A stretch of DNA of 64,000 nucleotides from Bacteroidota bacterium (lineage in GTDB: Bacteria > Bacteroidota > Bacteroidia > Bacteroidales > JAAUTT01), in the NCBI GenBank assembly GCA_030706405.1, contig JAUZOO010000010.1, positions 1 through 64,000 of the forward strand. Reading direction: 5' to 3'. The notes beneath the pieces were generated by a model. That model did not search any database, was not told the DNA's origin, and saw only the letters and a program-made list of their open reading frames with translations. The translations under genes and the position numbers were made by a program. Position 1 is the stretch's first letter. Every line of letters begins with the position of its first letter. Below, one piece after another: positions 30,427 through 44,422 of the stretch.

Positions 30427-32343
30427 ATGCAAATGCTTAAGATAAAACGAATTATAATTGGTTTTCTTCTTTCGGCTACAGTCGTTTTTTCGGCATTCGC
30501 ACAAACCCCGGTTTCGATCGGTGATATACAAACGCAACATATCTTCGGGTTTAAGGAGATCGAATATCTGGAAGATCCTAAAGGCATCTATACTTTTGAT
30601 GAGGTTAAACTTAAGTTGAGCCATAAGTTTCGGGCAAGTGAGATTAGCACCCCTCGTAATGATCATTTATCGTCTTATTATTGGTATCGTATTGCCATTG
30701 ACCAAACTCCGCGTACAGGGAAAAATTGGATTTTGGAATTTTATGACCAGACGATCGATGATATTGTAGTTTATCGGCCGGATCAACAGAATAATTATTC
30801 AACAATACTTCTTGGCGATAAATATAGGTTTGGAAATAGGGTTTATCTCCATAAGAATTTCATTATTGATCTTGATAATAATGTTACTGGAATAAAAGTT
30901 TATTATATCCGGCTTAAGTCTCACCAATCGGCCAATGTGATTCTGGTGTTGCGTTCGATAAACTGGTTTATCCATTATGCGCTCGACGAGTATTTCTTTT
31001 TTGGGCTTTTTTATGGTATGGTACTAGTGTTCAGTTTCTATAATTTTATAATGTACCTTGCTGTGCGGCAACGGCAGTACCTATATTATATATTGTATAA
31101 TCTGAGCATAGGCCTGTATGAAATGTGCACCGACGGTATTGCATTTCATTATTTGTGGCCCAATTGGACATGGTTTAATCAGTTTGCATTTGGGGTAGCA
31201 CTTTATCTGGCCAGTATTTTTGCCATATTTTTCACTCTGGACTTTTTACATGTTAAGGCCAAATATCGAACCATGAATCGGGTTATATATTGGTGGCTTA
31301 TCCTGCGATCGGTTTATTTTGCTTATTGTCTTTTTGTTGATGTTGAGTACTTTAATTATAAATTTATCGATTTAGCAACAGCAATCCTTGCATTTTATAC
31401 AGGAGTAAGGATTCTTCAGAAGGGCTATCGACCTGCTCGTTTCTTTGTAATTGGCTATGGTTTTCTGGTGTTTGGCATTATCCTGAAGATTCTTATTGTT
31501 TTTAATGTTCCGGGGTTACCTTACGGACCAGTCACTCATTACAGTCTTAGTTTTTGTTTTGTGTTAGAAATGATTTTGGTTTCATTCGCTATAGGCGAGA
31601 AGGTACGTATTTTGAAAATGCAAAGAGAGTTTGTGCAAAAGCGAACCATTAACGAAATGCGAGAAAATGCTCATTTAAAGGATGTTCTTAATCGGGAGCT
31701 CGAATCGCAAGTACAGGAACGCACCAAGGAAATAGTTGAAAAATCCGAAATTATTGAAATTCAGAATAAAGAATTGTTGTCGGTAAACTCAATTCTTAAG
31801 GACCAGGCCGAGGAAATTATACAGATAAATGAGCTTCTTAAGCTCCATAATATTGAATTACAGTCGAATGTAGATTCGGTGACACGAGCTAGGGTAATGT
31901 CGGCAGAGGTTAATTTTGAAGAATTTAGTAAGATTTATCCCGACGATAATTCTTGTTTTAAATTTTTATCAGAGTTGAAATGGGAAAAAGGCTATACCTG
32001 TCGCAAATGCAACAACAGTAATTATTTTCAGGGACACTTGCCTTATAGCCGACGTTGTACCAAATGTGGCTATGAAGAGTCTGTTATTGCCAATACCATC
32101 TTTCAAAATACCCGAATTCCCATTAACAAAGCGTTTTACCTGATATTTTTAGTATATTCCTCCAAGGGGAAAATCTCATCGCATAAGTTATCTGAAATTT
32201 TAGGAATACGGCAAAGTACCTGTTGGACCTACGCGTCTAAAATCAAAAAAGTGATGGACGAACGAAAAAATCTTCTGAAGAATGCGGGTGACAAAGGGTG
32301 GAGCAAGCTGGTATTAGGCGACTTCTCCGGCGATAAGAAGTAA
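30427..32343 (+). CDS. 7TMR-DISM membrane sensor fused to IS1595-transposase-like zinc ribbon and HTH
   Basis: 638 residues. Signal peptide 1-25; extracytoplasmic 7TMR-DISMED2-like beta domain about 35-175; seven membrane segments about 186-390; a long coiled coil about 395-490; then a cytosolic tail from about 495 that I recognise as the front of IS1595-family transposases: a zinc ribbon with C525/C528 and C544/C547, the NTIFQNTRIPINKAFYLIF segment, and an HTH (KLSEILGIRQSTCWTYASKI, about 587-606). The DDE catalytic domain is absent; the protein ends 30 residues later. No frameshift is needed, so this is one gene. It probably senses a ligand outside and binds DNA from the membrane. Own transcription unit after the tRNA-Pro hairpin. 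Confidence 0.82.
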   Translation: MQMLKIKRIIIGFLLSATVVFSAFAQTPVSIGDIQTQHIFGFKEIEYLEDPKGIYTFDEVKLKLSHKFRASEISTPRNDHLSSYYWYRIAIDQTPRTGKNWILEFYDQTIDDIVVYRPDQQNNYSTILLGDKYRFGNRVYLHKNFIIDLDNNVTGIKVYYIRLKSHQSANVILVLRSINWFIHYALDEYFFFGLFYGMVLVFSFYNFIMYLAVRQRQYLYYILYNLSIGLYEMCTDGIAFHYLWPNWTWFNQFAFGVALYLASIFAIFFTLDFLHVKAKYRTMNRVIYWWLILRSVYFAYCLFVDVEYFNYKFIDLATAILAFYTGVRILQKGYRPARFFVIGYGFLVFGIILKILIVFNVPGLPYGPVTHYSLSFCFVLEMILVSFAIGEKVRILKMQREFVQKRTINEMRENAHLKDVLNRELESQVQERTKEIVEKSEIIEIQNKELLSVNSILKDQAEEIIQINELLKLHNIELQSNVDSVTRARVMSAEVNFEEFSKIYPDDNSCFKFLSELKWEKGYTCRKCNNSNYFQGHLPYSRRCTKCGYEESVIANTIFQNTRIPINKAFYLIFLVYSSKGKISSHKLSEILGIRQSTCWTYASKIKKVMDERKNLLKNAGDKGWSKLVLGDFSGDKK

Positions 32344-32801
32344 TTTTCAGACAGATACGTCTGATTTGGCCAGTTATAGTTTAGTGGGATTTCAGTCTAC
32401 ATGTAATGGCATGATTGGTAGTTGTTTAAATGTTTTATAGATTTCCTTTTATTGAGGTAATCGAGTTAGGAAAAATATTTTCGTCAAAAAAAATAAAAAT
32501 TTTGAATGAGATTTAATCGTATCAATCGGGAGCTGTAGCTACCTCGTTAAATGAAATAATTTTTAAGATAATCAATGGATTAACGAAATGAATCAGAATG
32601 TTGTTAAAGCGTATCGTTTTTAGTGTAACTGTATTAATTTCAGTTAGTTACAAGTGATAAGTGTTTGTTTTTTCATTTGTAGCATATATTTTTGTGTTGT
32701 GAATAAATCGCACTTACTACCAAGTTGAATAAAAAAGTAATCGAACACAACCGGTTGTTTTTTAAAGTGCAGGATTTAGAAACAATAACATAATATAATA
32801 T
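32344..32801. other. AT-rich intergenic region
   Basis: No gene is seen in this 458-nt stretch. It holds a TATTTTTG-like box near 32688 that could serve the GH88 gene with a leader of about 100 nt, and a 12-bp perfect palindrome ACAACCGGTTGT at 32747-32758 followed by seven T, 44 nt before the GH88 ATG, which could be an operator. No terminator for the sensor gene is evident. Confidence 0.5.
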
Positions 32802-34013
32802 ATGCGCATTCTTCTGGCTTTTATAGTAGTGTTCGTCTGTGGTTTTAGTTCTTTGGTTGAGGCTCAGAATTTTACTTCTGTTATCGTCGATGCCGAAAAA
32901 CAAACCCATGTGATGCTAAACGAAATAGCAGCTATTGGTTCGCAGGCGGAAGTGAATACCAAAGGAGGTAAAAAGCAAAATTTGGTTTCGCCCCGTTCTA
33001 TTGATGCTAAAGGTAGTTTGGTAATGGTTAAACCTCAGGACTGGACCAGCGGCTTTTTCCCGGGGGTATTATGGTTTTTATTTGATTTTACCCATAAAAA
33101 TGAGTGGAAAGAACAGGCTCAGATTTTTACCTCAAAGCTTGAAAACGAAAAGTGGGATACCGGCACACACGATCTTGGATTTATGCTTTATTGCAGTTAT
33201 GGTTCAGGTTATCGGGTAACGTCGGATACGGCCTATCGCAGTGTGATTCTTCAGGGGGCAAGGTCGCTTTCAAAACGGTTTAACCCTAAAATAGGATGCA
33301 TCAAATCGTGGGATTTTGGTAAAGATAAATGGCAATATCCTGTGATTATTGATAACATGATGAACTTGGAGATGCTTTTTGCAGCAACCCGGTTATCAGG
33401 CGATTCTTCTTTCTATAAGATTGCAGTAAGTCATGCCAATAATACGATGAGAAATCATTTCAGGTCCGACTTCAGTTCGTACCACGTGGTTGATTATGAC
33501 ACTGTTTCGGGAAAAGAGCGCAAGCAGATGACTTTTCAGGGATATAGTGATGCCTCAGCGTGGGCACGCGGACAAGGTTGGGCATTATATGGTTTTACCA
33601 TGTGCTACCGCGAAACACATAACCCACTTTATTTAAAGCATGCTGAAAATATTGCAGCTTTTATTTTGAAGAATCCAACCATGCCAGCTGATAAGGTACC
33701 TTACTGGGACTTTAATGCTCCCGGCATCCCTTCCGAACCTCGTGATGTCTCTGCGGCAGCGGTTATTGCTTCGGCATTGTACGAATTGGGTTCCTATAGT
33801 AAGAATGGTAAATGGTATTATAAAACTGCCGATAAAATTGTTGAAAGTCTTACCCGTAAATACCGGTCGGTTATCGGCGAAAACAAAGGTTTTATTTTGA
33901 CACATAGTACCGGGTTTAAGCCAGCTAAAAGCGAGATTGATGTTCCGCTAAGCTATGCTGATTATTATTATCTGGAAGCAATATACAGGAAACTTCACCT
34001 GAAGAAAAAATAA
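32802..34013 (+). CDS. Glycoside hydrolase family 88 (unsaturated uronyl hydrolase)
   Basis: 403 residues with a signal peptide (cleavage near VEAQ, residue 21), so exported. GH88 enzymes hydrate and release the unsaturated uronic acid left by polysaccharide lyases. The (alpha/alpha)6 barrel signature is present: WTSGFFPGVLWFL, THDLGFML with the first conserved Asp, IDNMMNLEML with the second, and WARGQGWALYGF. There is no lyase or SusC/D pair next to it, so the polymer is unknown. A terminator follows at 34061. Confidence 0.92.
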   Translation: MRILLAFIVVFVCGFSSLVEAQNFTSVIVDAEKQTHVMLNEIAAIGSQAEVNTKGGKKQNLVSPRSIDAKGSLVMVKPQDWTSGFFPGVLWFLFDFTHKNEWKEQAQIFTSKLENEKWDTGTHDLGFMLYCSYGSGYRVTSDTAYRSVILQGARSLSKRFNPKIGCIKSWDFGKDKWQYPVIIDNMMNLEMLFAATRLSGDSSFYKIAVSHANNTMRNHFRSDFSSYHVVDYDTVSGKERKQMTFQGYSDASAWARGQGWALYGFTMCYRETHNPLYLKHAENIAAFILKNPTMPADKVPYWDFNAPGIPSEPRDVSAAAVIASALYELGSYSKNGKWYYKTADKIVESLTRKYRSVIGENKGFILTHSTGFKPAKSEIDVPLSYADYYYLEAIYRKLHLKKK

Positions 34014-35459: not shown

Positions 35460-37415
35460 ATGGCTTATCTTAAATTCGATAGTTCTCAGCTGATAAATTT
35501 GGAATACTCTCTCAATAGGGAAATTCTTCGCTCAAATCGTGGAGGATCGTATTCAAGTACTACCATTATTGGATGTAATACCCGCAAGTATCACGGGGTC
35601 TTAGTTTGTCCGGTCGAAAAATTCGACGGAGAACGGTATGTATTTTTGTCCAATCTGGACGAAACAGTGATTCAGCATGATACTGAATTTAATCTGGGCA
35701 TTCATAAATTCTCGGGCGAAAAGTATTATCCTAAAGGGCATAAATACGTTCAGGATTTTGAAGCTGAGGTTGTTGCTGCTGTTACTTACCGCGTGGGTGG
35801 AGTGGTATTAAAAAAGGAGAGCCTTTTGGTTGACCAGGAAGAACAAATTTTGATAAAATATACCCTTGAAGAGGCTCATTCTCCTACCAAACTCAGGTTT
35901 CGTCCATTTTTGGCATTTCGTAATATCCATGAGCTTACTCATGCAAATATGGATGCTAATACCCGGATAACGAGAGTTGTTAATGGGATTAAATCAAAAT
36001 TGTACCCCGGATTTCCAAGTCTTTTTATGCAGTTTTCTAAGGAGCCCGAATTTGTTCAGGTGCCGGATTGGTATTATAATATTGAATATAGCAAGGAGCA
36101 GGAACGTGGTTACGATTTTAAAGAAGATCTCTTTGTACCAGGCTATTTTGAAATCGATATAAAAAAAGGCGAAAGCGTTGTATTCTCCGCTTCGTTAAAA
36201 GAAGACAATCCTGATTCGTTTAAACAAAAATTTATAGACGAGTTCTCTAAACGTACGCCTCGTAACAGCTATAAAAATTGTCTGATTACAGCTGCTGAAC
36301 AGTTTATTGTTCGTAACGGAAATAAAACGGAAATACTGGCAGGATATCATTGGTTTGGCTCTTGGGGGCGCGATACGTTTATAGCTTTACCTGGATTGAC
36401 CTTGGCTATTGGCGATGTGAAAACGTTTCTTGAGGTTGTAGACACAATGGTAGGTCGGTTAAAGGGAGGCCTTTTCCCTAACATGGGGAGTGAGAATAAT
36501 CCTGCTTTTAATTCGGTAGATGCTCCTTTATGGTTTTTCCACGCCATGCAGCAATATGCCCAATACACAGGTAAAGATGCTGAAATATGGGAGAAGTACG
36601 GTAAGCCGATGAAGGCTATTTTGAAAGGTTATGTGGATGGACAGGCATTTAATATCCAGATGCATGACAATGGGCTTATTTATGCCGGAGCTCCGGGAAA
36701 AGCTCTGACATGGATGGATGCAGTGGTTTACGGAGAACCCGTCACTCCTCGTACAGGTTATCAGGTAGAAATAAATGCTTTATGGTATAATGCTATTATG
36801 TTTTCGTTAGCACTTGCCGAAAATGCTGGAGATAAAAAATTTATCAAGGAATGGTCTTATCTCCCCGAAAAGGTTCATAGTTCATACATTGAGACATTCT
36901 GTAACTGTGAACGAGGCTATCTTGCCGATTATGTTAATGGAGATTTTAAGGATTGGTCGGTACGGCCTAACATGGTTATTGCTGCATCGCTCGATTACAG
37001 CCCGTTAACCAACGAAATGAAAAAGGCTGTTATTGATTTGGCAGAGAAGGAGTTGCTTACCCCGCGAGGTTTACGTACGCTTTCTCCTCAAAATCCTAAT
37101 TATAGAGGAATTTATGAAGGTTCTCAGGAAAATCGTGACAGGGCCTATCATCAGGGAACTGTATGGCCATGGTTACTTGAACCATATTGCAGAGCTTACC
37201 TTAAATTACATAAAAAGACAGGAGTTTCGCATGTGAAAAAATTATTGGATGGGTTTGAAGAAGATTTACACATCCATGGAATTGGAACTATTGCCGAGGT
37301 ATATAACGGCGACCCTCCTCATCTGGCTAAAGGTACCATCTCCCAAGCTTGGAGCGTAGCAGCTTTATTACAGATGTTTGCGATGTTAGACCAACTAAAC
37401 CCTATACAATCATGA
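35460..37415 (+). CDS. Glycogen debranching enzyme (amylo-alpha-1,6-glucosidase type)
   Basis: 651 residues. It removes alpha-1,6 branch points of glycogen. An N-terminal GDE_N beta domain (SNRGGSYSSTTIIGCNTRKYHG) is followed by the (alpha/alpha)6 glucosidase domain with HWFGSWGRDTFIALPGL and YHQGTVWPWLLEPY. First gene of a four-gene plus-strand glycogen operon; its TGA stop overlaps the ATG of the next gene (ATGA at 37412-37415), which indicates translational coupling. Confidence 0.93.
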   Translation: MAYLKFDSSQLINLEYSLNREILRSNRGGSYSSTTIIGCNTRKYHGVLVCPVEKFDGERYVFLSNLDETVIQHDTEFNLGIHKFSGEKYYPKGHKYVQDFEAEVVAAVTYRVGGVVLKKESLLVDQEEQILIKYTLEEAHSPTKLRFRPFLAFRNIHELTHANMDANTRITRVVNGIKSKLYPGFPSLFMQFSKEPEFVQVPDWYYNIEYSKEQERGYDFKEDLFVPGYFEIDIKKGESVVFSASLKEDNPDSFKQKFIDEFSKRTPRNSYKNCLITAAEQFIVRNGNKTEILAGYHWFGSWGRDTFIALPGLTLAIGDVKTFLEVVDTMVGRLKGGLFPNMGSENNPAFNSVDAPLWFFHAMQQYAQYTGKDAEIWEKYGKPMKAILKGYVDGQAFNIQMHDNGLIYAGAPGKALTWMDAVVYGEPVTPRTGYQVEINALWYNAIMFSLALAENAGDKKFIKEWSYLPEKVHSSYIETFCNCERGYLADYVNGDFKDWSVRPNMVIAASLDYSPLTNEMKKAVIDLAEKELLTPRGLRTLSPQNPNYRGIYEGSQENRDRAYHQGTVWPWLLEPYCRAYLKLHKKTGVSHVKKLLDGFEEDLHIHGIGTIAEVYNGDPPHLAKGTISQAWSVAALLQMFAMLDQLNPIQS

Positions 37416-38698
37416 AAGTTTTAATGTTCGGGTGGGAGTTCCCCCCCCATATTTCAGGAGGACTAGGAACCGCCTGTTATGGCCTTACAAAAGGATTATC
37501 CAAGATACCAGAACTTGATGTGCTTTTCGTTGTTCCAAAAGCTTTTGGCGATGAACCGGGGGAAGCTGTACGTCTCATAGGTGCTAATCAGGTTCCTGTA
37601 ATGCAGAAAAAAATAAAAGTTCAAGGCTTTGTGCATTCAATGAATGTAATGGAAGTTGGTGTAAACATCGTGCCATATCTCTCTCACGAAGAATATGAGA
37701 AATCATATGAAGTAAATGTCGGAGGTTCCAATCGTTATGTAACTACCGACGATAAAGGCTTATTGCCTTTCACTGGGACTTATGGTCCTAATCTTTATCA
37801 GGAAATAGCCAATTATTCAGTTGTTGCATCGGTTTTGGGGAGTGAACAAGAATTTGACCTTATTCATGCACATGACTGGCTTACTTATCCGGCGGGTATA
37901 GCTGCCAAGGAAGCATCAGGGAAACCTTTGGTCGTCCATGTTCATGCTACCGACTTCGACCGTAGTGGCGGAAATGTTAATCCCGCTGTTTATGAGATTG
38001 AAAAACAAGGAATGATGGCGGCCGATAGGGTTATTACAGTAAGTAACCTTACTCGTAATATTGTTATCGAAAAGTATGGCATTGATCCGTCTAAAGTTTT
38101 TACGGTTTACAATGCTGTCGAACCAATTGCGGTGAAAGAGCATCTGAAAATGGACAAAGGTTTTGACGAGAAAATTGTCACATTTCTTGGCCGCGTTACC
38201 ATGCAGAAGGGGCCCGAATATTTTATTGAAGTGGCCAATAAAGTGCTTAAACGGATGAAAAACGTCCGGTTTGTAATGGCAGGAAGTGGCGATATGCTTA
38301 ACAAGATGATAGCACGTGCGGCTAAACTCAAGATAATGGATAAGTTTCATTTTACAGGGTTTTTAACCGGCGACGATGTTTATCGTATGTATTATATGAG
38401 TGATGTTTATGTTATGCCTTCTGTATCAGAGCCCTTTGGTATATCACCGCTAGAGGCGATGCAATCTAATGTTCCGGTGATTATATCTAATCAGTCGGGA
38501 GTGGCCGAAGTGCTTAATCATGCCGTGAAGGTCGATTTCTGGGATGTTGATGCCATGGCCGATGCTATTTATGGAATATTAAACTACCCGGCATTATACC
38601 AGACTTTTTCAAATTTTGGGAAAAATGAAGTGGAAGGATTGAAATGGGAAAACTCTGCAATAAGGGTTAAGGAAGTGTACGATTCAATTTTCGCATAA
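37412..38698 (+). CDS. Glycosyltransferase family 4 (glycogen synthase-like)
   Basis: 428 residues from ATG 37412. GT-B fold: SGGLGTACYGLTKGL at the N-terminus, HAHDWLTYPAG, GRVTMQKGPEYFIE, and the donor-site EPFGISPLEAM. It resembles the glycogen/starch synthase-like GT4 proteins of Bacteroidetes glycogen operons and likely builds alpha-glucan from a nucleotide-glucose. The start shares 4 nt with the debranching gene stop; an upstream in-frame start inside that gene is not favoured. Confidence 0.88.
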   Translation: MKVLMFGWEFPPHISGGLGTACYGLTKGLSKIPELDVLFVVPKAFGDEPGEAVRLIGANQVPVMQKKIKVQGFVHSMNVMEVGVNIVPYLSHEEYEKSYEVNVGGSNRYVTTDDKGLLPFTGTYGPNLYQEIANYSVVASVLGSEQEFDLIHAHDWLTYPAGIAAKEASGKPLVVHVHATDFDRSGGNVNPAVYEIEKQGMMAADRVITVSNLTRNIVIEKYGIDPSKVFTVYNAVEPIAVKEHLKMDKGFDEKIVTFLGRVTMQKGPEYFIEVANKVLKRMKNVRFVMAGSGDMLNKMIARAAKLKIMDKFHFTGFLTGDDVYRMYYMSDVYVMPSVSEPFGISPLEAMQSNVPVIISNQSGVAEVLNHAVKVDFWDVDAMADAIYGILNYPALYQTFSNFGKNEVEGLKWENSAIRVKEVYDSIFA

Positions 38699-38722
38699 AA
38701 GGTAAATTAAAATTTGTTGATA

Positions 38723-40111
38723 ATGAGGACGATTTGTTTGTTTTTTCAGATTCACCAACCCTTTCGGTTGAGACGTTACCGTTTTTTCGATATAGGAACT
38801 GAACATTATTATTATGACGATTATTCCAATGAGTCTACGTTACATCGCGCAGCCGAAAAATCATATATCCATGCAAATAAAATTTTGCTTGAGACCATAA
38901 ATAAACACAAGGATAAGTTTAAAGTAGCATTTTCCATTTCCGGAACCGCCCTCGATCAATTTGAGCTATATGCACCTGAGGTTCTGGAGAGTTTTCAAAA
39001 ATTGGCAGCTACAGGTCAGGTGGAGTTTCTTTGCGAAACCGATTCCCACTCTCTGGTATCGTTGTCTAATCCAGAGGAGTTTGAAAAACAGGTAAATGCC
39101 CATCGATTCAAAATAAATAAGGTTTTTGGTCAGAATCCGGTTGTTTTTAGTAATACAGAACTTATCTATTCAGATCAGATAGGCGCTCAGATTGCCGATA
39201 TGGGTTTTGAAGGAATGGTAACCGAGGGTGCAAAGCAAATTTTAGGATGGAAAAGTCCTAATTATTTGTATTGTAGTGCAATAAATCCAAAATTGAAATT
39301 ACTGTTACGTAACTTTAAGCTTAGTGATGATATTTCATTTCGATTTTCGAATCAAAATTGGAGTGAATATCCTTTAACCACCGAGAAGTTTGCATCGTGG
39401 CTTAATACCATCGACAAAAAGGAAGAAACCATCAATATTTTTATTAATTACGAGTCGTTTGGAGGATACCAGACGCGACAATCAGGCATATTTGAATTTT
39501 TTAAATACCTTCCTGAAACAATTTTTAAACTTACGAATTACACCTTTAGTACACCCACCGAAATTATTCGTCAGCAACAACCCATTGCCGCTGTTAGTAT
39601 TCCTTCTCCTATCTCCTGGGTTGATGAGGAACGCGACATTACTGCGTGGTTGGGCAACGATCTGCAAAAGGAAGCTTTTACTAAATTGTATAGGCTTTTA
39701 GATTATATAAAAGAGTGTAACGATCCTAAATTGTTGGTTGATTGGAAGTATTTGCAGTCGTCAGATCATTTTTATTACATGAGTACTAAATTTTTCTCCG
39801 ACAGGCCGGCACATTCTTATGCAAATCCCTATGGGTCGCCATACGATGCTTTTATTAACTATATGAACGTGCTGAACGATTTTTCGATGCGGGTAAAAAA
39901 AGCTACGATTTCAAATGGAGAAGATAGTGTCCCAATCGTTGAAGATTTGTTGCGGCTATTAGATGAAAAGGATAGTCTTCTGGCTCAATATCAAACTCAG
40001 GTTTCAAAGGAATCTCTGAATGTAGAAAAGAAGCCTTCGGCTAAATCTAAAAAGGAAACCGACAAAAAACTTCAACCGGTTTTAGTTACTAAAAACAACA
40101 AGAAAAAATAG
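38723..40111 (+). CDS. Glycoside hydrolase family 57 alpha-amylase-like enzyme
   Basis: 462 residues from ATG 38723 (MRTICLFFQIHQPFRLRR matches the family start; the TTG at 38714 is rejected). GH57 signature FQIHQPFR, ETDSHSL, and the nucleophile Glu in SNTELIYSD are seen. No signal peptide, so it acts in the cytosol on stored glucan. The last 40 residues are a Lys-rich tail. It sits 24 nt after the GT4 gene in the glycogen operon. Confidence 0.9.
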   Translation: MRTICLFFQIHQPFRLRRYRFFDIGTEHYYYDDYSNESTLHRAAEKSYIHANKILLETINKHKDKFKVAFSISGTALDQFELYAPEVLESFQKLAATGQVEFLCETDSHSLVSLSNPEEFEKQVNAHRFKINKVFGQNPVVFSNTELIYSDQIGAQIADMGFEGMVTEGAKQILGWKSPNYLYCSAINPKLKLLLRNFKLSDDISFRFSNQNWSEYPLTTEKFASWLNTIDKKEETINIFINYESFGGYQTRQSGIFEFFKYLPETIFKLTNYTFSTPTEIIRQQQPIAAVSIPSPISWVDEERDITAWLGNDLQKEAFTKLYRLLDYIKECNDPKLLVDWKYLQSSDHFYYMSTKFFSDRPAHSYANPYGSPYDAFINYMNVLNDFSMRVKKATISNGEDSVPIVEDLLRLLDEKDSLLAQYQTQVSKESLNVEKKPSAKSKKETDKKLQPVLVTKNNKKK

Positions 40112-40171
40112 CGAATATTGTTTTTTGTTTAACTAAATAGTTGACGATTATAAACTAGAATATTAAGCATT

Positions 40172-43100
40172 ATGAACGGAGATATTGAAAGCCCTGATTA
40201 TGTATTTGAGACAAGCTGGGAAGTTTGTAATAAAGTAGGGGGTATACATACAGTAATATCTACTAAGGCTCTTACCTTGGTCGAAAAGTTAAAGAGTAAT
40301 TATATTTTGATAGGTCCTGATGTCTGGCGTGATACTTGCCAAAATCCCGAATTTCAGGAAGATAGTTTGTTGTTTAAATCTTGGAGGGCTCGGGCAGCTG
40401 AAGAAGGATTGGGCCTGAAAATTGGACGATGGAATATTGCCGGAAGTCCCATTGTGATCATTGTCGATTTCATGACGTTTGTTCCGCAAAAAGACAGCAT
40501 TTTTCAAAAGTTTTGGGAACTTTATAAACTCGATTCTATTTCCGGACAATGGGATTATATTGAACCCGCACTTTTTGGGTATGCAGCCGCAAAGGTAATC
40601 GAAAGCTTTACTCATTTTCATCTGAGTATTCGCGATAGAGTAGTGGCTCAGTTTCACGAATGGATGACCGGTATAGGTATCCTATATTTGAAAAATTATA
40701 TGCCACAGGTAGCAACTGTATTTACCACACACGCTACGGTAGTGGGGCGTTCAGTCGCTGGCAATCAATTGCCGTTATACAGTAAACTAGCTCAATATAA
40801 TGGAGATACTGTTGCTACAGAATTTAATGTGTTAGCCAAACAGTCCCTTGAAAAACTTTCGGCTCAATATGCAGACTGCTTTACGACGGTTAGCGACATT
40901 ACTGCTCGCGAATGTGCACAATTTCTCGAAAAAAAGGTCGATTTGGTAACTCCCAACGGATTTGAGGCATCCTTTGTTCCTGAAATGGAGGATTTTATTG
41001 ATTGGCGCAGTGAATCTCGGGAAAAATTGATTAATGTGGCAGGAAAACTAACCAATCAATCATATACTGATGATACTTTTATAATTGGTATTAGTGGACG
41101 TTATGAGTTTAAGAATAAAGGTCTTGATTTGTTTATTGAAGCTATGGGAATGCTCAATAAATCAGAATCACTCGATCGTCCTCTTCTTGCTTATATTTTT
41201 ATTCCGGCTAATCATTATGGACCACGTAAGGATCTGTTAAATATGCTTACCCAAACCGATTTGGTTAACCAGGATGGTAAGATATTAACGCACAATCTTC
41301 ATGATGTTGATTATGATCCTATTATAAAACGAATAACGGCAGTTGGACTGACAAATGAACCGGATCAGAAGGTAAAGATATTCTTTGTACCTTGTTATCT
41401 TAACGGAACGGATGGAATTTTTAATATTCCTTATTACCAAGTTCTTTCGGGACTCGATTTGGGAATATTTCCTTCATATTACGAGCCATGGGGGTATACC
41501 CCTCTTGAAAGCGTGGCATTTGGGGTACCAACAATAACAACTTCGCTGGCAGGATTTGGGCTATGGGTGCAAAATGAAAGCAAAGTATCAAAAGATGCGA
41601 TTACTGTCATTGATCGTAATGATGATAATGATACATACGTTGTTATACAGACAGTTGCACGAGTGCTGGAGTTGTCGAAGATGAGTTCTGAACATGCATT
41701 ATATCTGAAAAACAAGGCTTCGGAACTTTCTCATATTGCATTATGGAAAAATTTCATTTCGTTTTACCTGAAAGCTTATCGTATTGCCACAGATAAGGCT
41801 AAACTGAGGGCAGGCAAGATGGTAGAGAAGGAGGTTGCTGAACAAATTCCTCATGTAGAGAAATACCAATTAGTATCGCCTCCAAAATGGAAGCGGATGT
41901 TGGTTGAAAAAAATATTCCCGAACGATTAGCCGCACTTGAAGAATTGTCACAAAATCTTTGGTGGAGCTGGAACTATGAGGCTGAAGAACTTTTTGAATC
42001 AATAGATCCGGCATTATGGGCGGAGAGTGAGAAAAATCCCATAGTCTTTCTTGAGTTGATTGCTTATAATAAGCTATTAAAACTCGAATCGGACAAAACT
42101 TTTCTTGAGCAATTAAATATTGTACATCAGAAGTATAAATATTACATGTCCGAAAAGCAGAGCAGAAAAGCTCCTCAGATTGCTTATTTCAGCATGGAGT
42201 TTGGGTTACACACATCTCTGAAGATATATTCGGGAGGTTTAGGAATCCTGGCAGGAGACTATCTTAAAGAAGCGTCAGATTCTAACGCTAATATGGTGGG
42301 GATAGGCCTTCTTTACCGATACGGTTATTTCAAACAGGTAATCTCGGTTAATGGCGACCAGATGGCACTTTCAGAACCCCAACATTTTTCGAAGACCCCA
42401 ACAATCCCTTTGCGCGATGATGACGGAAACTGGAAAACTGTTTCAGTTGTTCTTCCTGGAAGAACATTGATGGCACGTATTTGGAAAGTTCAGGTTGGTC
42501 GTGTTGATTTATATTTGCTGGATACTGATTTTGAAGATAATACACCGCAAGATAGGAGCATCACCCACCATCTTTATGGAGGAGATTGGGAAAATAGATT
42601 TAAACAGGAATTATTACTCGGCATTGGAGGTATCCGTGCTCTGAGGGAATTAGGGATAGATGCCGATTTGTTTCATTGTAACGAAGGGCATGCCGCATTT
42701 ATCGGGTTGGAAAGATTACATTATTATATTAATGAAAAAAACCTAACTTTTTCTGAAGCTCTTGAAATAGTGCGTTCGTCCACTCTTTTTACGACACATA
42801 CGCCTGTTCCTGCCGGTCACGATTCCTTTGAAGAAAACCTGCTTCGTATGTACATGGCACATTATCCCTCGCGGTTAAATATTACCTGGGAGCAGTTTAT
42901 GGGACTTGGCAAAATTAATGCCCACGACCCTAACGAACGATTCTCGATGAGTTACCTTGCCGCCAATCTTTCGCAGGAAGTTAACGGAGTTAGCCGTATC
43001 CATGGCAAGGTCAGCAAGGAGATCTTTAGTAAATTATGGCCGGGTTACATAACTGAAGAGCTATCCATTGGCTATGTTACTAACGGTGTCCATTATCCTA

Positions 43101-44422
43101 CGTGGACAGCTAAAGAGTGGAGGGAACTTTACGAGACAAAACTTGACAAAGATTTTCTGAATAAACAGTTAGATAAAAGTATCTGGAATAGAATTTATGA
43201 CGTTCCTGATAAAGAAATCTGGCGCATTCGCAATAACCAGCGCAGAAAATTGATAGATTATCTTAAAGACAGGATGAGGGAATCGTCTGACAAGCGTTAC
43301 GAAAATCCTAAAAACATTGTTGAGATTACTGAAAAAATTAACAAGTTTACACTTACCATAGGGTTTGCCCGCAGGTTTGCCACGTATAAAAGGGCTCATC
43401 TGTTATTTAAAGATTTAGAAAGGTTATCGCGTATTGTAAATAATCCGGGGATGCCCATACAGTTCCTTTTTGCAGGGAAAGCGCATCCAGCAGATAAAGC
43501 AGGACAGGACCTCATAAAGATGATTACCGAAGTTTCGCATCGTCCGGAGTTTATTGGGAAAATATTATTTATACAAAATTACGACATGGAGCTTGCACAT
43601 CATCTGGTGCAGGGGGTTGATGTTTGGTTAAATACACCTACCCGTCCATTGGAAGCTTCGGGAACCAGCGGCGAAAAGGCCGTGATGAACGGGGTACTGC
43701 ATTTTAGCGTACTCGATGGTTGGTGGGCTGAAGGTTACACAAAGGATGCAGGTTGGGCATTGCCAGAGGAGAGCACTTACGATAACAACGACTTTCAGGA
43801 CGAATTGGATGCTGAAATGATTTATAGTCTTATTGAGAATGAGTTAGCACCGCTGTTTTATTTCCGCGATGAGGACGATATTCCGGCGGGATGGGTGAGG
43901 TATATTAAAAATTCGATTGCTAAGGTGGCTTCAAATTTTACCACTACACGTATGCTCCGCGATTATCAGGTTCAGTTTTACGATAAACTTTATAAACGTT
44001 CGGTTCGTATGAAAGAAAACGAATTTGAACTTGCTAAAGAGCTTTCGTCGTGGAAAAAACGGGTATTTCGTGGATGGGAAAGCATTGAGGTTATATCAGT
44101 TAAACTGCCCGATATTTCTAAAGAACCTATTGTTATTGGAAAGAAATATCTTGGAGTCGTAATTTTGGATCTTAATGAGTTATCACCTGAAGATGTTGGA
44201 GTTGAATTTATTATTGCAGAAATGGTAACATCTTCCGAAGATCAGATTAAACTTGTACATCAACAGGATTTAAAATTGATAGATTTGAAAAGTAAACTGG
44301 CAACTTACACGGCCGATATTATTCCTTTTAAGACAGGGGCTTATGATATAGGAATCAGGATTTATCCTAAGAATGCAGAATTACCTCACAGGCAAGATTT
44401 TAATTTTATAAAGTGGATTTAG
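40172..44422 (+). CDS. Fused glycogen synthase (GT3) and alpha-glucan phosphorylase (GT35)
   Basis: 1416 residues. Residues 1 to about 555 are a GT3-type glycogen synthase, the eukaryote-like family, with SWEVCNKVGGIHTVISTKA, QFHEWMTG and SYYEPWGYTPLESVAFG. From about 580 it is an alpha-glucan phosphorylase: a DUF3417 start (ALEELSQNLWWSWN), AYFSMEFGLH, IYSGGLGILAGDYLK and the PLP lysine in SGTSGEKAVMNG at 1169. Both halves look complete and active, so one chain carries opposing synthetic and degradative activities. The fusion is known in Bacteroidetes. Last gene of the operon. Confidence 0.92.
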   Translation: MNGDIESPDYVFETSWEVCNKVGGIHTVISTKALTLVEKLKSNYILIGPDVWRDTCQNPEFQEDSLLFKSWRARAAEEGLGLKIGRWNIAGSPIVIIVDFMTFVPQKDSIFQKFWELYKLDSISGQWDYIEPALFGYAAAKVIESFTHFHLSIRDRVVAQFHEWMTGIGILYLKNYMPQVATVFTTHATVVGRSVAGNQLPLYSKLAQYNGDTVATEFNVLAKQSLEKLSAQYADCFTTVSDITARECAQFLEKKVDLVTPNGFEASFVPEMEDFIDWRSESREKLINVAGKLTNQSYTDDTFIIGISGRYEFKNKGLDLFIEAMGMLNKSESLDRPLLAYIFIPANHYGPRKDLLNMLTQTDLVNQDGKILTHNLHDVDYDPIIKRITAVGLTNEPDQKVKIFFVPCYLNGTDGIFNIPYYQVLSGLDLGIFPSYYEPWGYTPLESVAFGVPTITTSLAGFGLWVQNESKVSKDAITVIDRNDDNDTYVVIQTVARVLELSKMSSEHALYLKNKASELSHIALWKNFISFYLKAYRIATDKAKLRAGKMVEKEVAEQIPHVEKYQLVSPPKWKRMLVEKNIPERLAALEELSQNLWWSWNYEAEELFESIDPALWAESEKNPIVFLELIAYNKLLKLESDKTFLEQLNIVHQKYKYYMSEKQSRKAPQIAYFSMEFGLHTSLKIYSGGLGILAGDYLKEASDSNANMVGIGLLYRYGYFKQVISVNGDQMALSEPQHFSKTPTIPLRDDDGNWKTVSVVLPGRTLMARIWKVQVGRVDLYLLDTDFEDNTPQDRSITHHLYGGDWENRFKQELLLGIGGIRALRELGIDADLFHCNEGHAAFIGLERLHYYINEKNLTFSEALEIVRSSTLFTTHTPVPAGHDSFEENLLRMYMAHYPSRLNITWEQFMGLGKINAHDPNERFSMSYLAANLSQEVNGVSRIHGKVSKEIFSKLWPGYITEELSIGYVTNGVHYPTWTAKEWRELYETKLDKDFLNKQLDKSIWNRIYDVPDKEIWRIRNNQRRKLIDYLKDRMRESSDKRYENPKNIVEITEKINKFTLTIGFARRFATYKRAHLLFKDLERLSRIVNNPGMPIQFLFAGKAHPADKAGQDLIKMITEVSHRPEFIGKILFIQNYDMELAHHLVQGVDVWLNTPTRPLEASGTSGEKAVMNGVLHFSVLDGWWAEGYTKDAGWALPEESTYDNNDFQDELDAEMIYSLIENELAPLFYFRDEDDIPAGWVRYIKNSIAKVASNFTTTRMLRDYQVQFYDKLYKRSVRMKENEFELAKELSSWKKRVFRGWESIEVISVKLPDISKEPIVIGKKYLGVVILDLNELSPEDVGVEFIIAEMVTSSEDQIKLVHQQDLKLIDLKSKLATYTADIIPFKTGAYDIGIRIYPKNAELPHRQDFNFIKWI

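Follow-up and report, generated by a model that had tools for sequence, protein, structure and literature searches.

A 7TMR-DISM membrane sensor joined to an IS1595-type DNA-binding domain, a candidate activator of glycan-utilization genes in Bacteroidota

Analysing a stretch of 64,000 nucleotides (hereafter the window; contig JAUZOO010000010.1) from a Bacteroidota genome of the order Bacteroidales (assembly GCA_030706405.1, here G000), we identified a gene whose product joins a 7TMR-DISM membrane sensor to the zinc ribbon and helix-turn-helix (HTH) of IS1595-family transposases. We propose, with a probability of about 0.8, that this fusion is a membrane-tethered one-component activator of glycan-utilization genes, comparable to SusR, in which a captured IS1595 DNA-binding domain would respond to a ligand, bind a repeated box and activate the adjacent promoter. 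An earlier reading of the sequence only had suggested a domesticated transposase domain working as a membrane-tethered transcription factor, and this role is supported because fusion genes are linked to glycan genes, a repeated box precedes the next gene, and the distance from box to promoter is fixed. The features of the locus are the following.

30427..32343, + strand: fusion regulator, a single open frame of 638 amino acids (aa)
30427..30504, + strand: signal peptide, residues 1-26 (approximate), recognised by eye; predicted helix 2-23
30556..30954, + strand: periplasmic sensor domain 7TMR-DISMED2, residues 44-176 (Pfam, E 1.7e-27)
30988..31599, + strand: membrane domain 7TMR-DISM_7TM, residues 188-391 (Pfam, E 2.8e-42)
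31600..31899, + strand: coiled coil at approximately residues 392-491 (helices predicted for 373-451 and 454-492)
31909..32082, + strand: IS1595-type zinc ribbon, residues about 495-552, with C525, C528, C544 and C547 (PF12760 at 505-549)
32083..32271, + strand: IS1595-type HTH, residues about 553-615, recognition helix RQSTCW (NF033547 positions 1-55)
32518..32524, + strand: box 1, CGTATCA (extended AATCGTATCA from 32515)
32610..32616, + strand: box 2, CGTATCG (extended AAGCGTATCG from 32607), 92 bp after box 1
32664..32694, + strand: putative Bacteroidota-type promoter, TTTG, 19 bp, TATTTTTG; -7 element at 32687-32694, offset 77 bp from the first base of box 2
32802..34013, + strand: predicted target gene, GH88 unsaturated glucuronyl hydrolase, 403 aa (PDB match 3wiw, E 1.4e-112; at 1e-5, Pfam gave nothing)

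The frame of the fusion opens with an ATG at 30427, ends with a stop at 32341-32343 and contains no internal stop in its translation. Both the 7TMR-DISM_7TM and DISMED2 matches exceed their Pfam cut-offs, which identifies the window protein as a 7TMR-DISM receptor and, with the predicted helices, agrees with the signal peptide, sensor and coiled coil recognised from the sequence. PF07695 matched one protein in the whole genome G000, the fusion itself. Among the Pfam matches of the protein up to E 10, there was no histidine kinase, receiver, AraC or DDE family. The AlphaFold model of the whole protein had a predicted local distance difference test score (pLDDT) of 79.7, mostly below 50 at coiled-coil residues 454-472, and a predicted template modelling score (pTM) of 0.57; its sole PDB match below E 0.001 in Foldseek was the RetS periplasmic domain (3jyb, E 6e-4).

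The transposase ancestry of the tail is documented by profiles and by phylogeny. The NCBIfam IS1595 transposase model NF033547 matched residues 561-614 (30 bits, cut-off 75) over positions 1-55 of its 215 only, indicating that the HTH is present and the catalytic part absent. The four cysteines are invariant in 14/14 aligned fusions, all of which match PF12760 (E up to 1), while NF033547 matches 12 of them (E up to 10). In a quick tree of 66 tails, from which two fragments, two duplicate fusions and one disrupted transposase were excluded, the 24 fusion tails all lie on one side of a branch with a Shimodaira-Hasegawa-like approximate likelihood ratio test (SH-aLRT) support of 98; in the same tree, 24 of 26 solo ribbon and HTH proteins group together (SH-aLRT 94) and full-length transposases fall outside. 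Sequence comparison shows homology between the tail and the N-terminal region of complete IS1595 transposases, the tail stopping where their DDE region starts. The C2-C2 ribbon and IS1595-type HTH without DDE claimed earlier are confirmed by PF12760, by NF033547 positions 1-55 and by the tree. Modelled separately, the tail reached a pLDDT of 88.1 and a pTM of 0.81, with helices at tail residues 77-89, 96-103 and 107-123. Domain and structure searches had been suggested as the check on this assignment: the profile part supports it and the fold part is neutral, the weak fold matches (E of 0.87 or more) mixing zinc ribbons with HTH proteins. A PDB sequence search with the tail gave no match below E 0.086, and PADLOC gave no match.

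The fusion is not restricted to the window. A scan of genome contigs recovered 13 relatives in other named genome records, hosted by Mucilaginibacter, Pararcticibacter, Pedobacter, Rhodonellum, Algoriphagus and two Cytophagaceae metagenome-assembled genomes, and a sample of 395 genomes spanning the phylum yielded 10 further fused frames (620-718 aa). Within the window's order (295 genomes), the matches listed contained one other long frame (G243, 599 aa). In two sampled families, the tail was matched at E up to 1e-50 in 13/394 and 166/399 genomes, a threshold unreached by the solo proteins and transposases listed in the order and phylum scans; the latter count rests on tail scores, the frames among the matches listed all being at least 615 aa long, and two genomes are counted twice across the 395-, 394- and 399-genome samples. 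The family is thus larger than the sequence-only reading, which had called for a hunt for orthologues, supposed. The recurrence of the fused frame in 10/395, 13/394 and 166/399 genomes further implies that the window fusion is no assembly chimera, in line with the single open frame described at the outset. The window tail is 68-78% identical to those of its clade, against 31-47% for the ectodomain. Its row is nested in a 9-row clade (support 99) whose other members belong to Sphingobacteriaceae and to families f121/f122, from the same class as G000 and a different order; among 5 genomes of its own family, only G000 carries the fusion and two carry a 146-aa solo protein. Horizontal transfer would be the simplest reading of this placement.

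Fusion genes are associated with polysaccharide utilization loci (PULs), with a SusC-like receptor gene nearby downstream in 20/25 loci and SusD in 19/25 (L018 and L084, both counted, being one and the same gene). The loci without SusC are the window, L010, L019, L020 (contig ends) and L092. The matches listed of a TIGR04056 scan contain nine of the ten SusC genes in G-numbered genomes; Pfam confirmed both the receptor and SusD at L011, and the receptor at L083. At L010, the fusion closes a long co-oriented cluster whose first genes look SusC- and SusD-like by eye and which also holds glycoside hydrolase (GH) genes of GH30, GH3 and GH5; other fusion neighbours scanned were GH2, GH13, GH16, GH3, a chondroitinase-B-like lyase and a glucoamylase-like protein. 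In the 42-locus set of new fusions described below, the next gene was SusC-like in 10/42, and seven other next genes scanned comprised three GH30, two GH2 and two without a Pfam match. As SusC genes amount to a few percent of genes at most (at least 34-37 per genome in ten genomes, with about 35 candidates scored in each, of 50-146), chance adjacency in most loci is, by this informal estimate, unlikely.

A repeated box was found between the fusion and the gene that follows it. In all 8 loci of clade A with a co-oriented next gene, exactly two same-direction CGTATYR boxes lie in this interval, at spacings of 76, 78, 79, 79, 79, 90, 90 and 92 bp, the window pair standing ahead of the GH88 gene. 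An exact CGTAT pair 60-100 bp apart is present in 8/8 of these loci, against at most 3/8 for the best 5-mer (with two or more G/C) in 300 shuffled sets, and the CGTATYR pair is absent from all 25 fusion upstream regions examined. Since the motif was first spotted by eye, it was evaluated out of sample on 12 new loci from the 394-genome family and the 30 best-scoring from the 399-genome family; one of these, L187, duplicates L011, so that the set comprises 41 distinct loci. The pair recurred, 86-93 bp apart, in 24/41 loci where shuffles predict 0.02, and in 20/37 groups after near-copies were grouped at 80% identity. Split by orientation, it was present in 24/32 loci with a co-oriented next gene and in 0/9 otherwise. 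Furthermore, AA occurs in 64 of 66 boxes at the two bases ahead of the wobble base, outside the searched pattern, giving the consensus AANCGTATYR as two direct repeats 76-93 bp apart (about 7-9 helical turns). Altogether, the box pair adjoins fusion genes in 32 distinct loci.

The boxes also stand at a fixed distance from a promoter-like sequence. TAnnTTTG is the -7 element of Bacteroidota promoters, and it occurs 77 or 78 bp past the start of box 2 in 15/32 distinct loci (window included) and 12/28 groups, where 1.1 loci of a 33-locus set would be expected by chance over the whole 60-110 bp range. With one mismatch allowed, 26/33 loci have it at 75-79 bp, and three of the others lack sequence. 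Other offsets tested gave 1-11 of 24-33 loci, the 11 being at 78-82 bp, a range that overlaps the first, and the offset of 48-52 bp, the position of the -33 region, gave 18/32 loci.

In the mechanism that we propose, the periplasmic DISMED2 domain would sense a glycan fragment, and the 7TM domain and coiled coil would relay the signal to a cytoplasmic tail acting as a dimer. The tail, an IS1595 ribbon and HTH by homology, would bind the two AANCGTATYR direct repeats and, once bound, activate the promoter that has its -7 element 77-78 bp beyond the first base of box 2. As target we predict the downstream GH88 gene in the window and a SusC or glycoside hydrolase gene in most relatives examined.

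This arrangement shares features with several known systems. In the available parts of the published descriptions, SusR-like regulators and hybrid two-component systems (HTCS) are membrane-linked and are predicted to use widely spaced direct repeats (in the case of SusR, with spacers of 67 or 77 bp), SusR being a membrane-bound glycan regulator and an activator (PMC3878776); likewise, a 7TMR-DISM joined to a ChiS DNA-binding domain is reported among proteobacterial genomes (PMC8092284), and the DISMED2 domain of NicD to bind carbohydrates (PMC8544897). The fusion resembles the SusR-like PUL regulators of B. thetaiotaomicron in its linkage to glycan genes and in its predicted operator, which would have the form of direct repeats with a long spacer in the 8/8 and 24/41 loci; it differs, when compared by description, in having an IS1595 ribbon and HTH as output and a 7TMR-DISM as sensor. 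Bacteroides HTCS are also described as membrane-anchored glycan sensors of SusC/D loci with long-spacer direct repeats, whereas the window protein has no histidine kinase, receiver or AraC match. IS1595-family transposases share the N-terminal zinc ribbon and HTH, but the fusion lacks DDE, is attached to a membrane sensor and forms one stable clade. ChiS-type proteins share the pairing of 7TMR-DISM with a DNA-binding output, yet the fusion carries a different DNA-binding domain from the one described in the part of that report available (PMC8092284). The sequence-only reading had also raised a new one-component signalling type: the transposase-derived output and its regulon are new here, while membrane glycan regulation by SusR and the joining of DISM to ChiS were already published. 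Judging from titles and abstract openings of the hits listed, in a coverage that leaves out most subscription literature, we found no publication on a 7TMR-DISM/IS1595 fusion. For environmental Bacteroidota, the proposed regulator would represent an additional class, with a testable operator, among those governing polysaccharide utilization, and would be a bacterial example of a transposase DNA-binding domain made into a signalling output, whose source family, operator and promoter geometry can be read from sequence. Moreover, the boxes make targets predictable where a fusion gene is present, and they could be put to use in glycan-inducible expression tools.

Many solo proteins of about 135-170 aa, made of the same ribbon and HTH, occur in the window's order beside thioredoxins and other redox- or sulfur-type genes. 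Each of 23 solo loci has an opposite-strand gene upstream (intervening genes possible), 15 of them thioredoxins by similarity and 2 others; the remaining ones are presumably of two kinds, 4 and 2. A 19-bp consensus, AAATCGCWTTARTATCACT, derived from the same solo loci on which it was tested, is found upstream with at most 3 mismatches in 19/23 loci, a level that 0 of 200 shuffles per locus reach, and it has a TATCA core in common with the fusion box. Their recognition helices are mostly RQMTCW, like the RQSTCW of clade A. These solo proteins of about 140 aa probably constitute a separate regulator family. Around the solo genes of L026-L052 (G-numbered genomes of the window's order; about 1.5 kb on either side), AAATCGCWTTARTATCACT stands in tandem twice at some loci.

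Other explanations of the fusion were weighed against activation. The tail could bind the boxes and repress the neighbouring glycan genes until a ligand releases it, and two boxes 76-93 bp apart could indeed serve looping; we consider this improbable, as the putative promoter follows the boxes at a constant distance and as SusR, which among regulators with widely spaced direct repeats is the nearest parallel in function, is described as an activator (PMC3878776). The boxes could instead belong to another regulator of glycan loci, the tail having a different job such as protein contact or zinc sensing. Binding by the tail is inferred, which leaves room for this, and clade C, whose helices (RQGTCW/RQATSW) are close to that of clade A, has no box pair; but the pair recurs beside fusion genes in distinct loci, and a site sharing this TATCA core lies upstream in 19/23 solo relatives, so that we rate this somewhat lower still. 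That the fusion is a functionless product of an IS1595 insertion into a sensor gene, now decaying, would fit the IS1595-like frames of the same genome, one of them with an internal stop, but is contradicted by a single fusion clade conserved across families, by the invariant cysteines and by a tail more conserved than the ectodomain, and its probability is negligible.

Several observations weigh against the activator that we favour. PF12760 stays below its cut-off in the direct Pfam scan of the window protein (505-549, E 1.3e-4, 22.3 bits versus 25.4), reaching 26.5 bits, above the cut-off, in the in-genome scan, and a PDB fold search with the tail model gave no match below E 0.87. The window locus has GH88, without SusC/SusD. 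The counts are not independent, many of the loci being related to one another. At L017/L021, fusions 66.6% identical have orthologous SusC partners (81.9%), so part of the linkage is inherited; in favour of the proposal, fusions 73.6% identical at L014/L015 have non-orthologous ones (28.7%), and the association was thus partly inherited and partly made anew. Among the new loci, 17/41 lack the pair beside the fusion, and at 8 of these 17 the next gene is co-oriented. L172, where this gene is SusC-like, is a true miss of the exact pattern, and at several others the next gene is apparently unrelated to glycans. L010 has a one-mismatch pair, at 87 bp, before the SusC-like gene of its cluster (58/2000 shuffles do as well).

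The other clades are also less favourable. Clade B, with helices of RINAIS- or RKNTVG-type, lacks the CGTATYR box and has only a weak, different repeat, CGATTTT, which with one mismatch is found 62-79 bp apart in 7/9 loci versus at most 4 in 30 shuffles and is suggestive only, the exact-word test giving 3/9, matched by 16/300 shuffles. In clade C, no repeat was detected in 3 loci by the exact-word test nor in 4 loci with one mismatch. Since clade C combines a clade-A-like helix with the absence of the box, helix and box do not co-vary cleanly, and a helix-to-box code is only a lead. Finally, CGTATYR-N66-90-CGTATYR was rejected as a genome-wide regulon finder, with no clear excess over the reversed pattern in 9/9 genomes. 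In the 4.93 Mb of the window genome, the bare pair occurs 24 times and its reversed control 16 times; the window itself contains one pair, against an expectation of 0.16. In favour of the window pair, it is one of only two among these 24 that do not lie inside open reading frames (ORFs), and the other scores poorly (9.4). Its own score is 34.0 when the matrix includes its boxes and falls to 27.7 when they are left out, the best in-ORF pair scoring 27.3, and its case leans on position more than on score.

A broader scenario would have the end-recognition domain of the transposase domesticated in Bacteroidota into both membrane glycan sensors and solo proteins, with operators derived from transposon terminal repeats; if true, transposon-end recognition would have been turned into promoter recognition. 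We regard it as tentative and lean against it. Terminal repeats of related IS1595 elements, detected in part of 24 loci, were compared with both operators in 14 comparisons. The best, L028 versus the solo site, was equalled by 4/1000 shuffles, which is unconvincing after 14 tests, and descent of the operators from these repeats was kept as a lead. The inverted repeats of L028 flank the transposase gene, 85 bp ahead of it and 30 bp behind. The window's own genome contains an IS1595 transposase-like frame with an internal TGA (L002, G000:C15:604-996).

Downstream of the fusion in L013, L015, L085 and L087 are GCAAACGTTT-like sequences, which we take to resemble LacI-type operators. Further along the window, positions 35460-44422 carry glycogen metabolism genes, namely a debranching enzyme, a glycosyltransferase, a GH57 and a 1416-aa protein combining glycogen synthase and phosphorylase domains.
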